Source: Streptomyces virginiae (lineage in GTDB: Bacteria; Actinomycetota; Actinomycetes; Streptomycetales; Streptomycetaceae). Taken from it: 64,000 nt of DNA. The notes beneath the pieces were generated by a model that was given only the letters and a program-made list of their open reading frames with translations, was not told the DNA's origin and did not search any database. Both the position numbers and the translations under genes were made by a program. The stretch lies in assembly GCF_000720455.1 (NCBI RefSeq), contig NZ_JOAK01000024.1:22121-86120 (forward strand). Reading direction: 5' to 3'. This document shows, piece after piece, positions 6,443 through 51,884 of the stretch (position 1 is its first letter; each line of letters starts with the position of its first letter).

Positions 6443-6486
6443 AACAGGTGAAGCAGCCGACCGGCCCGAGTGAACGGACGGTGAAC
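6443..6486 (-). promoter_or_regulatory. PHO box (PhoP-binding direct repeats) of pstS
   Basis: Read on the minus strand, two abutting 11-nt units, GTTCACCGTCC (6476-6486) and GTTCACTCGGG (6465-6475), match the Streptomyces PhoP direct-repeat consensus GTTCACC. A weaker third unit, CTTCACCTGTT (6443-6453), sits exactly one skipped unit further on. The site lies 163 bp upstream of the pstS start. Confidence 0.85.
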
Positions 6487-46145: not shown

Positions 46146-46418
46146 TCAGTCGATGTTGAAGCCCCTGGCCGCGTCGTAGATGTCCGCTTCCACGACGTAG
46201 ATGACGTTCCATGCCGGGACCACGATGTACTTCACCGTGGCGGAATCGGACCAACTCGACCGTGTGAGGTCGTCGTTCGTGTAGGCGAGGTGGGTGTCGG
46301 GACCGTAGGGATCCGTGGCGATCTTGTTGACGAGGCTCAGCAGTGACCGGCGGTCGTCGGGCGGGAGGTAGTCGCGGAGCCTTCCCGCCTGCTCGGTGAA
46401 CTCGATGCGGAACTTCAT
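46146..46418 (-). CDS. Orphan small protein, possibly RelE/ParE-like
   Basis: A 90-residue protein beginning MKFRIEFTEQAGRLRDYLPPDDRR and containing KYIVVPAWNVIYVVEADIYDAARG near its end. The strand-helix-strand pattern and the conserved position of aromatic residues are reminiscent of RelE/ParE toxins, but there is no neighbouring antitoxin and catalytic residues cannot be verified. Codon third positions are visibly less GC-rich than in adjacent genes, a sign of recent acquisition. Start ATG at 46418. Confidence 0.5.
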   Translation of the reverse strand: MKFRIEFTEQAGRLRDYLPPDDRRSLLSLVNKIATDPYGPDTHLAYTNDDLTRSSWSDSATVKYIVVPAWNVIYVVEADIYDAARGFNID

Positions 46419-46546
46419 GATGGTCGGAGCGTAGGTGCGGCGCGGACGGTCCAGCCATCGGATTTCCGGCCGCCGGCCGGACGGGGGCTCACGCGGGGCT
46501 CCCGTCCGCTGTTCCGCGGCGGGCGGGGGCTTCGCCGTCCTCCGGG

Positions 46547-47140
46547 TCAGTCCGTGGCGGCCGGGGTGGTGGTCCGCCACTCGTTGCCTATCGAGCGGAT
46601 CAGGGCCGGGTAGACGCCGAGGTACCGGAAGGGCTTGATGGCCAGCATGTAGGCGGCGCCCAGCAGGCCGTTGGGTTTCACCAGGACGGCCATCTGGCCG
46701 TGGTGGCCGCCGTCGCCGTCCGGGACCCAGCCGATGTGCAGCACGCCGTGCATGGTCTTGTTGGCCGTCTCCGCCGCCCACTCGTCGTGCGTCTGGTAGA
46801 CGGAGGTGAACGGCACGGAGGTGAGGTCCGGCCCGCGATCGCCCTCGCGGAGGTCCGCCGGCAGCCGGTCCCGGAGCGTCGGCACCCGCGAGCGCAGTCC
46901 GCCGGACGGTTCGTCCCAGCCGAGCAGCGCCCCGAGCTTCCAGCGGATCGCGAACAGCGCCCGTCCCGCGCGGGAGGGGACGGGGTCCCCCGTGCCCCCC
47001 GCGAACTGGCGTACCAGTCGCGCGAGGTCGTCGGGACCGCCGGGGGTCGGCAGGGCCCACACGTCTTCGAGCCGGAAGTCGCCGGCGATCTCGTGGATGC
47101 GCCAGGGGCGCGAGGTGTGGGCGGTGCTGGGGAGTCTCAT
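46547..47140 (-). CDS. DUF2867-family protein
   Basis: A 197-residue protein of the DUF2867 family. The domain spans the full length with conserved features such as LGWDEPSGGLRSRVPTLRDRLP and VFTSVYQ-like DLTSVPFTSVYQT. The ATG at 47140 is preferred to a TTG two codons upstream. It is divergent from a TetR-family gene and shares a promoter region with two identical-type operators, so that regulator probably represses it. The biochemical role is unknown. Confidence 0.78.
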   Translation of the reverse strand: MRLPSTAHTSRPWRIHEIAGDFRLEDVWALPTPGGPDDLARLVRQFAGGTGDPVPSRAGRALFAIRWKLGALLGWDEPSGGLRSRVPTLRDRLPADLREGDRGPDLTSVPFTSVYQTHDEWAAETANKTMHGVLHIGWVPDGDGGHHGQMAVLVKPNGLLGAAYMLAIKPFRYLGVYPALIRSIGNEWRTTTPAATD

Positions 47141-47154
47141 GCGCAAGCCCCTGT

Positions 47155-47208
47155 CTATACGATGCCGTATAGATCGAGGCTAGCACTCTTCTATACGGCA
47201 CCGTATAG
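47155..47208. promoter_or_regulatory. Two TetR-type operators between DUF2867 and TetR genes
   Basis: Two 18-bp inverted repeats of the form CTATACG-N4-CGTATAG: 47155-47172 and 47191-47208, their starts 36 bp apart. The first lies 15 bp from the DUF2867 start and the second 27 bp from the TetR start. Each contains TATA-rich -10-like sequence, so repressor binding would block both promoters. Confidence 0.8.
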
Positions 47209-47235
47209 AAGGGGTCCGTGTGAGGAGGAGACACC

Positions 47236-47796
47236 ATGGGCGCGACCCGCACGCCGCGCGGCAAGTGGATCGAGGAGGGGCTGCGGGCCCTGGCCGCCGG
47301 CGGCCCGGAGGCCGTCCGCGTCGAGTCGCTGGCGCAGGCGCTCGGCGTCAGCAAGGGCGGCTTCTACGGCTACTTCGGCAGCCGGGGCGCGCTGCTCGCC
47401 GAGATGCTCGACACCTGGGAGCGGGAGGTCACCGAGGCGGTGATCGAGCTGGTCGAGAGCGGCGGGGGAGACGCCCGGGCCAGGCTGGAACGGCTGTTCA
47501 CGATCGTCGCCTCCTACGAGGAGGGGCCGGTGGTCGGCGTCGACGCCGACCTGGCGATCCGCGACTGGGCGCGCCGCGACGAGGCCGTCGCCGAGCGGCT
47601 GCGCCGCGCGGACAGCAGGCGCATGGAGTACCTGCGCTCGCTGTTCCGCGCCTTCTGCACCGACGAGGACGACGTCGAGGTCCGTTCCCTGATCACCTTC
47701 TCCCTGCGGATCGGCTCCCACTTCATCGCGGCCGACCACGGTGGCCGCAGCCGCGCGGAGGTGATGGCGCTGACCCGGACGTGGCTCCTGCGTTAG
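47236..47796 (+). CDS. TetR-family regulator of the divergent DUF2867 gene
   Basis: A 186-residue TetR-type repressor. The helix-turn-helix reads GGPEAVRVESLAQALGVSKGGFYGYFGSRGALLAEML at residues 23-59, the C-terminal helical domain follows. ATG at 47236 with GAGGAGACACC upstream. Two matching operators in the shared intergenic space support repression of both genes. Confidence 0.9.
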   Translation: MGATRTPRGKWIEEGLRALAAGGPEAVRVESLAQALGVSKGGFYGYFGSRGALLAEMLDTWEREVTEAVIELVESGGGDARARLERLFTIVASYEEGPVVGVDADLAIRDWARRDEAVAERLRRADSRRMEYLRSLFRAFCTDEDDVEVRSLITFSLRIGSHFIAADHGGRSRAEVMALTRTWLLR

Positions 47797-47797
47797 G

Positions 47798-47824
47798 GGT
47801 GCCCCCGGTGCCCCCGGTGCCCCC
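47798..47824 (+). repeat. Three tandem copies of a 9-bp unit
   Basis: GGTGCCCCC is repeated three times exactly just after the TetR stop codon, before the terminator. Probably a replication-slippage tract. Confidence 0.75.
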
Positions 47825-47837
47825 GGCGTACCGAGAA

Positions 47838-47876
47838 AGGCCCCCCGCCTGCGGGACGTCCGCGGGCAGGGGGCCT
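47838..47876. terminator. Hairpin between TetR and the Cys-rich peptide gene
   Basis: Arms 47838-47854 and 47860-47876 pair over 17 positions with one mismatch and one G-U, with a loop GACGT. It lies between convergent genes. Confidence 0.65.
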
Positions 47877-47916
47877 CTCGGGGTACGGGGTGCGGTGCCG
47901 GGCCGGGTGGGCCCGG

Positions 47917-48066
47917 TCAGCCGCCGCACTGGCAGGGGGCACCGGACTGGCAGCCGCAGCCGCAGCCGGAACCGCAGCCGCATGCCGCGAGCAGCGGGAG
48001 CCGCAGCGGCTCGGGCTTCGGAGGCTGCTCCTGCTCCGGGGTGATGGGGACGGGGGAATCGGGCAT
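47917..48066 (-). CDS. Cysteine-rich 49-residue peptide
   Basis: A 49-residue ORF missed by longer-ORF searches. It starts with ATG at 48066 immediately after an excellent ribosome site (GAGGAGGAACC) and ends with TGA at 47917-47919. The first 20 residues are acidic and proline-rich (MPDSPVPITPEQEQPPKPEP), then RLPLLAAC, then a Cys/Gly cluster with cysteines at positions 29, 31, 35, 37, 39, 45 and 47 and the C-terminus QCGG. Seven cysteines in 19 residues could bind metal in a metallothionein-like way, or be a modified-peptide precursor core, although no modification enzyme is nearby. The gene may be followed by the terminator at 47838-47876. Confidence 0.72.
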   Translation of the reverse strand: MPDSPVPITPEQEQPPKPEPLRLPLLAACGCGSGCGCGCQSGAPCQCGG

Positions 48067-48268
48067 GGTTCCTCCTCGAAAGAGGCGGTGCCCCGCGGCA
48101 TACGGGACTTCGTGCGACTGACCGCCTCGCCCTCATTCATGCCCAGCTCCACCGGCGCGTCAACGGCGCACGGAAGCTCGGTGCGGGCCGCCGCCCCCGG
48201 GACGCCCGCCGCCCGCCCGGCGCCGGCCCGACCGCCGCCCGCCTGCCGCCGCCGTCAGGCGCCCGCGA

Positions 48269-48946
48269 TCAGGCGCCCTCGATCTGGGTCGGCTGCTGGA
48301 GGTCGTCCGCGTGCTCTCCCGTCACCAGGTAGACCACGCGCTTGGCCACCGACACCGCGTGGTCCGCGAAGCGCTCGTAGTAGCGGCCGAGCAGCGTCAC
48401 GTCCACCGCCGTCTCGATGCCGTGCTTCCAGCGGTCGTCCATCAGGTGCTGGAACAGCGTCCGGTGCAGCTGGTCCATCTCGTCGTCGTCCTGCTCCAGC
48501 TGGAGCGCCAGGTCGACGTCCTTCGTGATGATGACCTCGGCCGCCTTCGCCATCAGGCGCTGCGCCAGCTGCCCCATCTCCAGGATCGTCGCGTGCAGGT
48601 CACGCGGGACGGCGCGGTCCGGGAAGCGCAGCCGGGCGAGCTTCGCCACGTGCTGGGCCAGGTCGCCGCTGCGCTCCAGGTCGGCGCTCATGCGCAGCGA
48701 GGTCACCACGATCCGCAGGTCGGTGGCGACCGGCTGCTGGCGGGCCAGCAGTGCGATGGCGCGGGCCTCCAGGTCGTGCTGGAGGTCGTCGACCTTCTGG
48801 TCGGCGGCGATGACGCTCTCGGCCAGCTTGAGGTCGGCATCGAGCATGGACGTCGTGGCCCGCCCGATCGCGGAACCGACGAGCCGGGCCATCTCGACCA
48901 GGCCTTCTCCGATCGAGTCCAGTTCCTCGTGGTACGCGTCGCGCAT
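48269..48946 (-). CDS. phoU: Phosphate-signalling regulator PhoU
   Basis: A 225-residue protein made of two PhoU three-helix repeats. EELDSIGEGLVEMARLVGSAI begins the first and CLLGRYYERFADHAVSVAKRVVYL-type sequence (DVTLLGRYYERFADHAV) ends the second. In other bacteria PhoU restrains the PhoR kinase and Pst transport when phosphate is plentiful. It is divergent from phoR-phoP across a region with PHO-box units. Start ATG at 48946. Confidence 0.95.
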   Translation of the reverse strand: MRDAYHEELDSIGEGLVEMARLVGSAIGRATTSMLDADLKLAESVIAADQKVDDLQHDLEARAIALLARQQPVATDLRIVVTSLRMSADLERSGDLAQHVAKLARLRFPDRAVPRDLHATILEMGQLAQRLMAKAAEVIITKDVDLALQLEQDDDEMDQLHRTLFQHLMDDRWKHGIETAVDVTLLGRYYERFADHAVSVAKRVVYLVTGEHADDLQQPTQIEGA

Positions 48947-49056: not shown

Positions 49057-49089
49057 CACAAGTGAATCAACCCCGTCGCCAGGGTGAAC
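49057..49089 (-). promoter_or_regulatory. Candidate PHO box between phoU and phoR
   Basis: On the minus strand, GTTCACCCTGG (49079-49089) is an excellent match to the PhoP repeat unit. A weaker ATTCACTTGTG (49057-49067) lies exactly one skipped unit further, the same spacing seen in front of pstS. It is placed 74 bp upstream of the phoR start. Confidence 0.7.
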
Positions 49090-49162
49090 TCTGGGCGACG
49101 ACTGTTCGAGGTGCCACCCGAACGGCTGTGGAAGTGTCGTCGCGCCTGCTTAACCTGGATCC

Positions 49163-50362
49163 ATGGACGTGAACGCGGCGGTCGCCGCAGCTGCAGCGAT
49201 CGCCGGTCTGTGCACCGGCGTCATCGCGATGCTGGCGTTCCGCTGGAGCGAGCGCGACCAGGCCCGCCCCACCCGGAGCTCCATGCGCCCCGACATCAAC
49301 GCGGTGCTCCCGCCCGGCGTGGACACCGTGCTGTCCGTGCTCCGCTCCTCCGCCGTGGTCCTCGACGAGGGCGACGCCGTCGTGAAGGCCTCGTCCGCCG
49401 CCTACGCCCTCGGGCTCGTACGCGGCGGCAAGCTGGCCGTCGAGCCCATGCTCCACATGGCCCGCGACACCCGCCGCGACGGGGAGATACGGCAGGTCGA
49501 GCTGGACCTGCCCCGCCGCGGTACCGGCCGGGGAGAGGCCCTCGCCGTCTCGGCACGCGTCGCCCCGCTCGGCTCCCGCCTGGTGCTCCTCCTGGTCGAG
49601 GACCTCACCGAGGCCCGCCGCATCGAAGCCGTACGCCGCGACTTCGTCGCCAACGTCTCCCACGAGCTGAAGACCCCGGTCGGGGCGATCTCCCTGCTGT
49701 CCGAGGCCGTCATGGACGCGGCCGACGACCCCGAGGCGGTCACCCGCTTCGCGGGCCGCATGCAGATCGAGTCCACGCGGCTGATCAACCTCGTGCAGGA
49801 ACTCATCGACCTCTCCCGGGTACAGAACGACGAGGCCCTGGAGGACGCCGAGCCCGTACGCGTGGACACGCTGGTGGCGGAGGCCATCGACCGCTGCCGC
49901 CACACGGCCACCGCCAAACAGATCACCATGGCCGCCGGCGGCACCGCCGACCTGCGGGTGTGGGGACACCGGGGGCAGCTGGCGGCCGCCCTCGGAAACC
50001 TCGTCGAGAACGCCGTCAACTACAGTCCCGCCCGCACCCGTGTCGGCATCGCCGCGCGCCGGGTGACGGCTCCCGGGGGAGACTTGATCGAGATCGCCGT
50101 GACCGACCAGGGCATCGGCATCCCGGAGAAGGACCGCGAGCGCATCTTCGAGCGCTTCTACCGCGTGGACCCGGCCCGCTCCCGCGCCACGGGAGGAACC
50201 GGCCTCGGCCTTGCGATCGTGAAGCACGTGGCCGCCTCCCACGGCGGGGAGGTGTCGGTGTGGAGCTCGGAGGGCCAGGGCTCCACCTTCACCCTGCGAC
50301 TCCCCGAAGCGGCCGCCGCCGCCCCCGCGGCGGCCCCCCGCACCCACCCGACCCCAGCCTGA
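49163..50362 (+). CDS. phoR: Phosphate sensor histidine kinase PhoR
   Basis: A 399-residue kinase related to SenX3. One N-terminal membrane helix (about residues 5-26) and a PAS-like domain (residues about 52-145) precede the phosphoacceptor helix FVANVSHELKTPVGAISLL, then the ATPase with NLVENAVNYSP, DQGIGIP and GTGLGLAIVKH. It lacks the extracytoplasmic sensor of the kinase at 15,516. The ATG at 49163 is preceded by TAACCT at -10 spacing with no ribosome site, so transcription is probably leaderless. Pairs with phoP 41 bp downstream. Confidence 0.95.
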   Translation: MDVNAAVAAAAAIAGLCTGVIAMLAFRWSERDQARPTRSSMRPDINAVLPPGVDTVLSVLRSSAVVLDEGDAVVKASSAAYALGLVRGGKLAVEPMLHMARDTRRDGEIRQVELDLPRRGTGRGEALAVSARVAPLGSRLVLLLVEDLTEARRIEAVRRDFVANVSHELKTPVGAISLLSEAVMDAADDPEAVTRFAGRMQIESTRLINLVQELIDLSRVQNDEALEDAEPVRVDTLVAEAIDRCRHTATAKQITMAAGGTADLRVWGHRGQLAAALGNLVENAVNYSPARTRVGIAARRVTAPGGDLIEIAVTDQGIGIPEKDRERIFERFYRVDPARSRATGGTGLGLAIVKHVAASHGGEVSVWSSEGQGSTFTLRLPEAAAAAPAAAPRTHPTPA

Positions 50363-50403
50363 ACCAGAACCGCTCCAGCCATCCCTGCCCCGGAGGTCCT
50401 TCC

Positions 50404-51084
50404 GTGACCCGAGTGCTCGTCGTCGAGGATGAGGAATCCTTCAGCGACGCCCTGTCCTACATGCTCCGCAAGGAGGGCTTCGAGGTCGCCATCGCGGCGA
50501 CCGGCCCCGACGGGCTCGACGAGTTCGAGCGCAACGGCGCCGACCTCGTCCTCCTCGACCTGATGCTGCCGGGCCTGCCCGGCACCGAGGTCTGCCGGCA
50601 GCTGCGCGGCCGCTCCAACGTTCCCGTGATCATGGTGACCGCCAAGGACAGCGAGATCGACAAGGTCGTCGGGCTGGAGATAGGAGCAGACGACTACGTC
50701 ACCAAGCCCTTCTCCTCGCGGGAGCTGGTCGCCCGCATCCGCGCGGTCCTGCGCCGCCGCGGAGAGCCGGAGGAGGTCACCCCGGCGGCCCTGGAGGCCG
50801 GCCCCGTACGGATGGACGTCGACCGTCACGTGGTCACCGTCGCCGGCGGCAAGGTGGACCTCCCGCTGAAGGAGTTCGACCTGCTGGAGATGCTGCTGCG
50901 CAACGCGGGCCGCGTGCTGACCCGCATGCAGCTGATCGATCGGGTCTGGGGCGCCGACTACGTCGGCGACACCAAGACCCTGGACGTCCACGTCAAGCGC
51001 CTGCGGGCCAAGATCGAGCCCGATCCGGGCGCGCCGCGCTACCTGGTCACGGTCCGCGGCCTCGGCTACAAGTTCGAGCCGTAA
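50404..51084 (+). CDS. phoP: Phosphate response regulator PhoP
   Basis: A 226-residue OmpR-type regulator. The receiver domain has VEDEESF at residues 7-13, phosphoacceptor Asp52 in LLDLMLPG, and the lysine in YVTKPFS. The winged-helix region (LPLKEFDLLEMLLRNAGRVLTR) ends in VRGLGYKFEP. It binds PHO boxes such as the one upstream of pstS and represses or activates phosphate, nitrogen (including glnR) and antibiotic genes in other Streptomyces. GTG at 50404 after GGAGGTCCTTCC. A strong terminator follows. Confidence 0.96.
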   Translation: MTRVLVVEDEESFSDALSYMLRKEGFEVAIAATGPDGLDEFERNGADLVLLDLMLPGLPGTEVCRQLRGRSNVPVIMVTAKDSEIDKVVGLEIGADDYVTKPFSSRELVARIRAVLRRRGEPEEVTPAALEAGPVRMDVDRHVVTVAGGKVDLPLKEFDLLEMLLRNAGRVLTRMQLIDRVWGADYVGDTKTLDVHVKRLRAKIEPDPGAPRYLVTVRGLGYKFEP

Positions 51085-51197: not shown

Positions 51198-51884
51198 TCA
51201 GTGGCCCGCGGCGTGCGAGGCGGAGCCCGACGGCGAAGCGGCCGCGCCCGAGGCGCTGCCGGACGGGGTGGCGCCGGCGGCCGGGGTCGCGGCCGGGGTA
51301 CCGCCCGGGGTGGCGGCCGGGGTGCCGGACGGGGTGCCCGCCGGGGTGGCGGACGGGGCGGCGGACGGGGCCGCCGACGGACCGAAGCCCGCGTACATGC
51401 CGGTGGCCGGGACCACGAAGGCCTGGAGCTCGACGCCACCGGTGCTGCTCAGCTGGAAGACGACCTTCTGCACGTCGCCGTTCTTCGCGGCCTCGGAGCC
51501 GTTCTCGATCACGGCGGAGGCGTTGCCCTTGCCGCCGAGCACCACGGAGCCGCCGGCCGGCACGGTGATCTTGCCGCCGCCCTCGGCCGGCTTCAGCGCG
51601 ACCTTGCCCTTGCCATCCGCAAGGGTGATGCCGTCAAGCGTCTGCGCCTTGGTGCCGTTGTTGAAGACGGTCGCCGAGACGACGGCCGGGCCCTTCTTGT
51701 CCTTCTCGCCCTGGGTGATCACCAGAGCGTTCTGGATCTCGATGTCGCCCTTGGTCACGGCGGCGTTGTCCGGCTTGATCTGGAGAGTCTGCGCGTCTTT
51801 GCCCGCACCGCATGCGGCCAGCGAGGCGATCGAGAACACGACGGCGGTGGCGGCGAGGGCGCCGCGTCGAAGGCTGCGGCTCAC
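51198..51884 (-). CDS. Lipoprotein with immunoglobulin-like core and Ala/Pro/Thr tail
   Basis: A 228-residue exported lipoprotein. The signal peptide ends in SLAAC with the lipidated cysteine at residue 25. The central beta-rich region (NALVITQGEKDKKGPAVVSATVFNNGTKAQTLDGIT) resembles DUF461/copper-chaperone-like lipoproteins, but the PCu(A)C metal-binding motif is not seen. From about residue 168, repeats of PSAAPSA, GTPSGTPAATPGG and similar units form a flexible tail. Start ATG at 51884. Function unknown. Confidence 0.8.
   Translation of the reverse strand: MSRSLRRGALAATAVVFSIASLAACGAGKDAQTLQIKPDNAAVTKGDIEIQNALVITQGEKDKKGPAVVSATVFNNGTKAQTLDGITLADGKGKVALKPAEGGGKITVPAGGSVVLGGKGNASAVIENGSEAAKNGDVQKVVFQLSSTGGVELQAFVVPATGMYAGFGPSAAPSAAPSATPAGTPSGTPAATPGGTPAATPAAGATPSGSASGAAASPSGSASHAAGH

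Follow-up and report, generated by a model that had tools for sequence, protein, structure and literature searches.

The 49-residue open reading frame on the reverse strand of the window (the whole 64,000-nucleotide stretch of Streptomyces virginiae DNA analysed here) is a genuine gene, maintained by purifying selection, and corresponds to the streptomycete gene mtpA (SCO4227). Its product is probably a cytosolic metallothionein-like thiolate chelator, encoded as an autonomous unit and carrying a variable N-terminal extension, which as a whole is the best explanation of our observations. Metal binding was the best supported of the readings originally offered for this peptide and is also the published prediction in the accessible parts of the literature.

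Conservation and identity of mtpA

The gene and its translation signals were mapped as follows.

47917–48066, reverse strand: mtpA coding sequence, 49 aa, from translation and matches in genus genomes
48071–48077, reverse strand: ribosome-binding site GAGGAGG
47926–47982, reverse strand: cysteine core C-x-C-x3-C-x-C-x-C-x5-C-x-C, residues 29–47, with spacers near-invariant in relatives

Translation placed cysteines at residues 29, 31, 35, 37, 39, 45 and 47 and QCGG at the C-terminus, and in the sequence GAGGAGGAACC abuts the ATG at 48066 on its 5' side, all as the original prediction had described. The start was ATG in every one of 70 loci chosen by the seven-cysteine pattern (own copy included, representing 69 distinct genes), and GGAGG lay within 22 nt 5' of the ATG in 69 of them. 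A whole-genome search returned the mtpA peptide as the single strong match in its own genome. Matches at E ≤ 0.01 were obtained in 191 of 199 Streptomyces genomes, own genome counted, and the reading frame is therefore not a product of chance. A profile search of 16 of these genomes (the eight without a match and eight with weak ones) found the cysteine core adjoining phoU in 11; G176 possesses phoU and lacks the core in the 12–13 kb read, phoU of G151 was located at a contig end, and in G112, G129 and G134, assemblies of hundreds of contigs each, a PhoU match was likewise absent. At the family level, 144 of 150 Streptomycetaceae genomes matched at E ≤ 0.01, some of them weakly.

Substitutions in the 19-codon core of the 69 distinct genes were mainly synonymous, with pS of 0.344, pN of 0.0295 and a pN/pS ratio of 0.086, the cysteines in these rows being constant by the choice of loci and the other core positions being free to vary. 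The original prediction had named absence of this cysteine pattern from relatives as a refutation; the genome survey and the alignment showed the pattern to be conserved. The gene belongs to the core genome of Streptomyces, and the view that it sits in an accessory insert fails, as the peptide is kept beside phoU and the TetR neighbour of the window occurs at just one of 57 relatives' loci.

The identification as mtpA rests on position, content and names. SCO4227 is tabulated as 'Metallothionein protein (mtpA)' beside SCO4228 phoU (accessible text of PMC2267785), and mtpA is placed immediately 3' of phoU and divergent from phoRP (accessible text of PMC11019849). The window has the same gene order, phoP-phoR / phoU-peptide, with the peptide gene next after phoU and phoRP divergent. 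Among the homologues listed in UniRef, seven of 120 bear the name 'Metallothionein', and the NCBI name is hypothetical protein. The gene is thus not "undescribed"; the label "unannotated" holds for the window peptide, which is without a Pfam or NCBIfam family, and does not hold for the gene, which was already known. What is new here is the conserved upstream element, the core-only genes, the phoU-less loci and the cydB-linked relatives. Our search of the open literature, with most subscription journals outside it, found no paper dealing with relatives linked to cydAB, with loci that lack phoU or with the conserved element before the gene.

The cysteine core and its N-terminal extension

Alignment of 31 homologues, drawn from 121 protein records, showed an N-terminal half that varies in both length and sequence and a core that is near-fixed. 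Across 153 distinct streptomycete loci, which were selected by the seven-cysteine pattern and in which the cysteines are hence constant by construction, two core glycines (Gly 10 and Gly 14) were invariant, 150 loci kept Gln 12 and 140 kept Gln 18. Spacer residues in this set were limited to G, S, Q, T, N, A, P, D, K and R, and neither His nor an aromatic residue was found in the core spacers. Total cysteine content was 7, 8 or 9 in 43, 22 and 5, respectively, of 70 aligned proteins. Additionally, eight genes (L117, L122, L128, L207, L208, L209, L240 and L252) encode the core alone as a 27-residue peptide, with GGAGG immediately 5' of the ATG.

Searches of Pfam and NCBIfam, metallothionein models included, returned no family for the window peptide. 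Among relatives, Metallothio_5 was matched by 2 of 31 sequences in one set, with a best E of 0.009, and by 4 of 39 in another, with a best E of 0.0015, matches that are perhaps compositional; NCBIfam matched none of 39.

Transcription of mtpA

The following elements flank the coding sequence.

48154–48170, reverse strand: conserved upstream element TGCGCCGTTGACGCGCC, a GCGCC direct repeat around TTGAYG, possible -35; the sole exact copy in the genome
48130–48144, reverse strand: second conserved block GGGCATGAATGAGGG, possible -10, 26 bp downstream of the first, start to start
47821–47890, reverse strand: strong hairpin, probable terminator without a T-run, between the convergent mtpA and TetR genes

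The block TGCGCCGTTGAYGCGCC and, 26 bp onward, the block GGGCATGNAATG are conserved across Streptomycetaceae genera. With no more than two of its 17 letters altered, the first block was present in 116 of the 152 streptomycete copies compared, and both blocks (at least 14/17 and at least 11/15) occurred together at a spacing of 25–27 in 91 of 152; copies without the element include second copies, phoU-less loci and several phoU-adjacent ones. None of 33 copies from the Nocardiopsis group reached 13/17 for the first block. We read the element as a likely promoter from its conservation, its placement and the published finding that mtpA has its own promoter; a consensus sigma-70 scan under a strict TATAAT rule found no promoter before mtpA. 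The element was also considered as the operator of a wider regulon and rejected as such, the exact 17-mer occurring once in the genome and sites with up to two mismatches numbering 13, against 9 for the reversed control.

Downstream of the gene, the segment 47820–47920 folds at -73 kcal/mol (z -5.74), a stability equalled by none of 200 shuffles; a scan for T-run-based terminators after mtpA found nothing. The conserved promoter-like element together with this hairpin suggests that mtpA is an autonomous transcription unit. A search of the window for a two-unit GTTCACC PHO box, the consensus being taken from general knowledge, gave eight matches where 5.26 were expected, a total near chance. 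None of them lay before mtpA, and one PHO-box-like match was located at 49083–49100 between phoU and phoR. Elsewhere in the window, 6469–6486 on the reverse strand holds a PHO-box-like direct repeat of two GTTCACC units with one mismatch, within the same near-chance total.

Published transcript data, each taken from the accessible text of the report, single out neither a metal nor a phenotype. In an afsS study, the section on the phosphate starvation response tabulates SCO4227 with a value of 0.36 (PMC2267785). One report describes mtpA as up-regulated under phosphate limitation independently of PhoP (PMC3282765) and another states regulation of SCO4227 by PhoRP (PMC4991794); the accounts conflict over PhoP dependence. 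In wild-type cells under oxidative stress, SCO4227 fell to 0.14-fold (PMC4991794). In strain WAC07094 the mtpA promoter responded upward to magnesium and not to manganese or zinc, and the magnesium, spatial and tested antibiotic phenotypes were independent of MtpA (PMC11019849). No metal-binding measurement on MtpA was found in the accessible open literature.

Genomic context in Streptomycetaceae and beyond

The peptide gene neighbours the phosphate regulators in the window.

47236–47796, forward strand: TetR-family regulator (PF00440), convergent, variable, outside the unit
48269–48946, reverse strand: phoU (PF01895, 9.3e-37; TIGR02135, 3e-57)
49163–50362, forward strand: phoR sensor kinase (HisKA, HATPase_c; best NCBIfam matches PnpS and PhoR, below cut-off)
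50404–51084, forward strand: phoP response regulator (Response_reg, Trans_reg_C), its start placed provisionally from the domain position in ORF 49084–51084

Same-strand placement within 500 bp downstream of phoU was found for 131 of the 153 distinct streptomycete loci, a set biased towards best matches and with second copies among its members, whose counts are hence not population frequencies. Two further copies lay on the same strand at a greater distance, seven were tail-to-tail with phoU in the same place (L016, L029, L244, L245, L247, L251 and L259), and 13 had no PhoU in the stretch read. The tail-to-tail placement suggests that the peptide gene is transcribed independently. Three loci (L216, L217 and L218) lack phoU and have the peptide in its place beside phoR, whose product is 67–70% identical to the window PhoR; a genome-wide search for PhoU at E ≤ 1e-40 found none in G202 and G215, two of the three source genomes. 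The peptides of these three loci, from genera g2 and g5, carry Lys where Gln is usual. Conversely, phoU was present and the core absent in the 12–13 kb read from each of G176, G289, G313, G212 and G219.

Some further features of the neighbourhood are recorded here in their own right. The DNA from the phosphoglycerate-mutase-type gene to mtpA (46146–47796) is variable and holds a DUF2867 protein and the TetR regulator. After phoP, at 51198–51884 on the reverse strand, lies a lipoprotein-like ORF with a weak match to the PCu(A)C copper chaperone family (E 0.0089; 16.3 against 29.4 bits), and by eye similar ORFs occupy the same position in several relatives.

Two matches at E ≤ 1e-4 were found in four of 343 genus genomes, and eight second copies were followed, namely these four and four from other genera of the family. 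Two of the eight (L155 and L157) lie in zinc-uptake loci, a link that was found post hoc. The neighbours in L155 are CobW, Nramp, ABC-3 and ZnuA, and L157:3008–6530 encodes on one strand an MFS protein, the cysteine peptide, ZnuA and an ABC ATPase. Zur-like sites with two mismatches, scored against a consensus taken from general knowledge with single-base shuffles as the control, were a 15-mer before the upstream MFS gene of L157 and a site about 4.7 kb from the peptide in L155; none was found directly 5' of the peptide in the second copies. The L159 copy adjoins a ferritin-like gene and the L156 copy a DUF402 gene, L261 being a look-alike locus. No zinc or copper gene was recognised at the other six second copies, where neighbours were scanned with Pfam in L156 and L159 and glanced at in L158, L160 and L222.

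A survey of the class (296 genomes, E ≤ 1e-3) gave 48 matching genomes: the own genus contributed 28 and family f17 contributed 13, and the other seven were scattered weak matches in families f4, f8, f9, f19 and f26; the stretch read from one weak match (G393) lacked the core. Nocardiopsis belongs to family f17, since L145 carries behind the peptide a gene identical to one from Nocardiopsis sp. FIRDI 009; 37 of 200 f17 genomes matched at E ≤ 1e-3. We counted the 33 loci of this Nocardiopsis group with a full core, dropping four weak ones (G667, which has no core in the stretch read, G696, G627 and G771). None of the 33 stretches contained PhoU. A CydB match preceded the peptide by at most 1.5 kb on its own strand in 26 of the 33, among which L144 and L176 are short fragments and L184 is cut by the contig start, and Pfam recognised CydA and CydB in L145, CydB in L146 and CydA in L153. 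Three of the seven loci without CydB (L143/L172, L150/L178 and L152/L164) showed none in 10-kb stretches. A conserved ORF of about 117 residues follows the peptide on its 3' side in 26 of 33 loci, cydB-less ones included; this protein (L145:5354–5707, forward strand, and equivalents) bears the motif C-x2-C...WPCPT and matches nothing in Pfam. The phylum survey matched 10 of 346 genomes, all of the own genus, under a scoring of 20 candidates per genome by which distant members may be missed.

Proposed function and alternative explanations

Thiolate clusters with Zn(II), Cd(II) or Cu(I) are what one would expect of short His-free peptides with CxC repeats. MtpA shows the features of the metallothionein class in being small and cysteine-rich, with CxC motifs and a core free of aromatics. 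We propose that the seven-cysteine core, with Gly, Ser and Gln between its CxC pairs and often one or two extra cysteines at its C-terminus, would fold around a thiolate-bound cluster of soft metal, that the ions bound would be Zn(II) and/or Cu(I), and that the peptide may buffer the metal or pass it on. The acidic Pro-rich N-terminal half would be a variable, dispensable extension, and a unit of its own parked at phoU-phoRP could have its expression linked to nutrient stress with no requirement for phoU. Metal binding, the choice of metal, the buffering role and the cytosolic location are what we infer as most likely from these comparisons. Zinc is slightly favoured because two second copies are in zinc loci and disfavoured because the mtpA promoter is silent to zinc; copper is favoured because of the likeness to copper thioneins known from general background and the link with oxidase bd. 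Oxidase bd is itself copper-free. A simple role in protection from oxidants is disfavoured because SCO4227 falls to 0.14-fold under oxidative stress.

The alternatives differ in how much of this they can accommodate. A thiol/redox element, in which CxC disulfides or an oxidation-labile Zn-thiolate cluster would connect the redox state with both respiration and signalling through PhoU/PhoR, is unlikely: it would suit the phoU-phoRP context in Streptomycetaceae, the cytochrome bd gene cydB upstream in 26 of 33 Nocardiopsis-group loci and the suggestion of a review that sensing of, or resistance to, oxidative stress might involve PhoU and the mtpA metalloprotein (accessible text of PMC7866108), but the SCO4227 transcript drops under that stress (accessible text of PMC4991794) and the spread of cysteine totals over 7, 8 and 9 does not suggest fixed disulfide pairs. 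We think it very unlikely that MtpA is a partner of PhoU that gives it metal, strips metal from it or aids its action on PhoR. Placement close behind phoU in 131 of 153 streptomycete copies would fit such a partner, and some PhoU proteins bear metal clusters, according to a reference title in PMC10030506; the peptide is nevertheless kept by phoR without phoU in L216, L217 and L218, G202 and G215 are PhoU-less genome-wide, the Nocardiopsis group has no PhoU at any of its 33 loci, and five genomes have phoU without the core in the 12–13 kb read.

The original prediction had also considered a modified-peptide precursor, and the two-part appearance and the GG at the C-terminus are reminiscent of a RiPP leader and core. 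In its conservation the peptide inverts what leader-core precursors usually show, with a variable N-terminal half before a near-invariant core, and a leader-core precursor is disfavoured because the eight genes that lack the 'leader' altogether have their own ribosome site. Pfam analysis of the window genes between about 43.8 and 51.9 kb recovered MFS, phosphoglycerate-mutase-type His_Phos_1, DUF2867, TetR, PhoU, PhoR and PhoP proteins and the lipoprotein-like ORF and no modification enzyme, in line, over this range, with the original statement that none is visible within 5 kb. A RiPP precursor is on these grounds highly improbable. To the same degree we doubt a lipoprotein anchored by lipid outside the membrane through the lipobox-like L-A-A-C before the first core cysteine; although a triplet fitting [LVI][ASTVIG][GAS], a pattern taken from general knowledge, precedes that cysteine in 102 of 153 streptomycete loci, the hydrophobic stretch was read as only about five residues long after an acidic Pro-rich segment, and the eight core-only genes are entirely without it. 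Runs such as GGCTGCGGCTGC in GC-rich DNA can yield Cys-Gly repeats, and ORFs overlap here on both strands, so a spurious reading frame was considered; its probability is negligible given the conservation, the synonymous bias of change, the ribosome site and the conserved upstream element, and the substitution pattern of the core (pN/pS 0.086) refutes it.

Beyond the metallothionein-like chelator that we favour, we advance a broader view tentatively and with more doubt than confidence. The core may be a metal/redox module in its own right and represent an actinobacterial metallothionein family, so far uncatalogued, that recurs at loci of stress signalling and respiration, where Zn/Cu buffering would be coupled to phosphate limitation and to terminal oxidase choice. 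This view would embrace the placements at phoU-phoRP, at a two-component system and cydAB in the Nocardiopsis group, and at zinc-uptake loci for some second copies, along with a dedicated streptomycete promoter that works without phoU. The gene is almost universal in streptomycetes and adjoins the master regulator of phosphate, but it has no match among curated family models. The comparison provides a minimal 27-residue core, a promoter-like element and cases that keep the peptide without phoU or cydAB as handles, and it raises the question of why phosphate-starved streptomycetes would produce a metallothionein.

Comparison with known systems

The known systems that follow, apart from the SCO4226 and mtpA/SCO4227 loci, are described from general background. 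Bacterial metallothioneins of the SmtA/BmtA type are likewise small, cysteine-rich and probable soft-metal chelators, but the window peptide is without any Pfam match and core His is absent in the 153 loci. Mycobacterial MymT is also actinobacterial, about 50 residues long and cysteine-rich, a likeness of description. The copper thionein of the Neurospora type, with about 25 residues, seven cysteines in CxC pairs and Gly/Ser spacers, resembles the 27-residue core-only members; a search of the PDB found no relative, and the likeness, being compositional, may be convergent.

SCO4226, the nickel-binding protein of PF14026, is with its 82 residues a different protein (accessible text of PMC4186839), although it neighbours SCO4227 in S. 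coelicolor and both are down-regulated together (accessible text of PMC4991794). The window gives nothing better than E 0.012 for a SCO4226-like gene, and none of the 57 loci L009–L065 had one in the stretches read, such genes occurring in other lineages; a homologue search of the own genome gave no match, as did its positive controls. The mtpA/SCO4227 locus of S. lividans and S. coelicolor likewise encodes a small predicted metallothionein directly 3' of phoU with phoRP divergent, and differs from the window in the neighbour on the other side, which is TetR/DUF2867 in S. virginiae.
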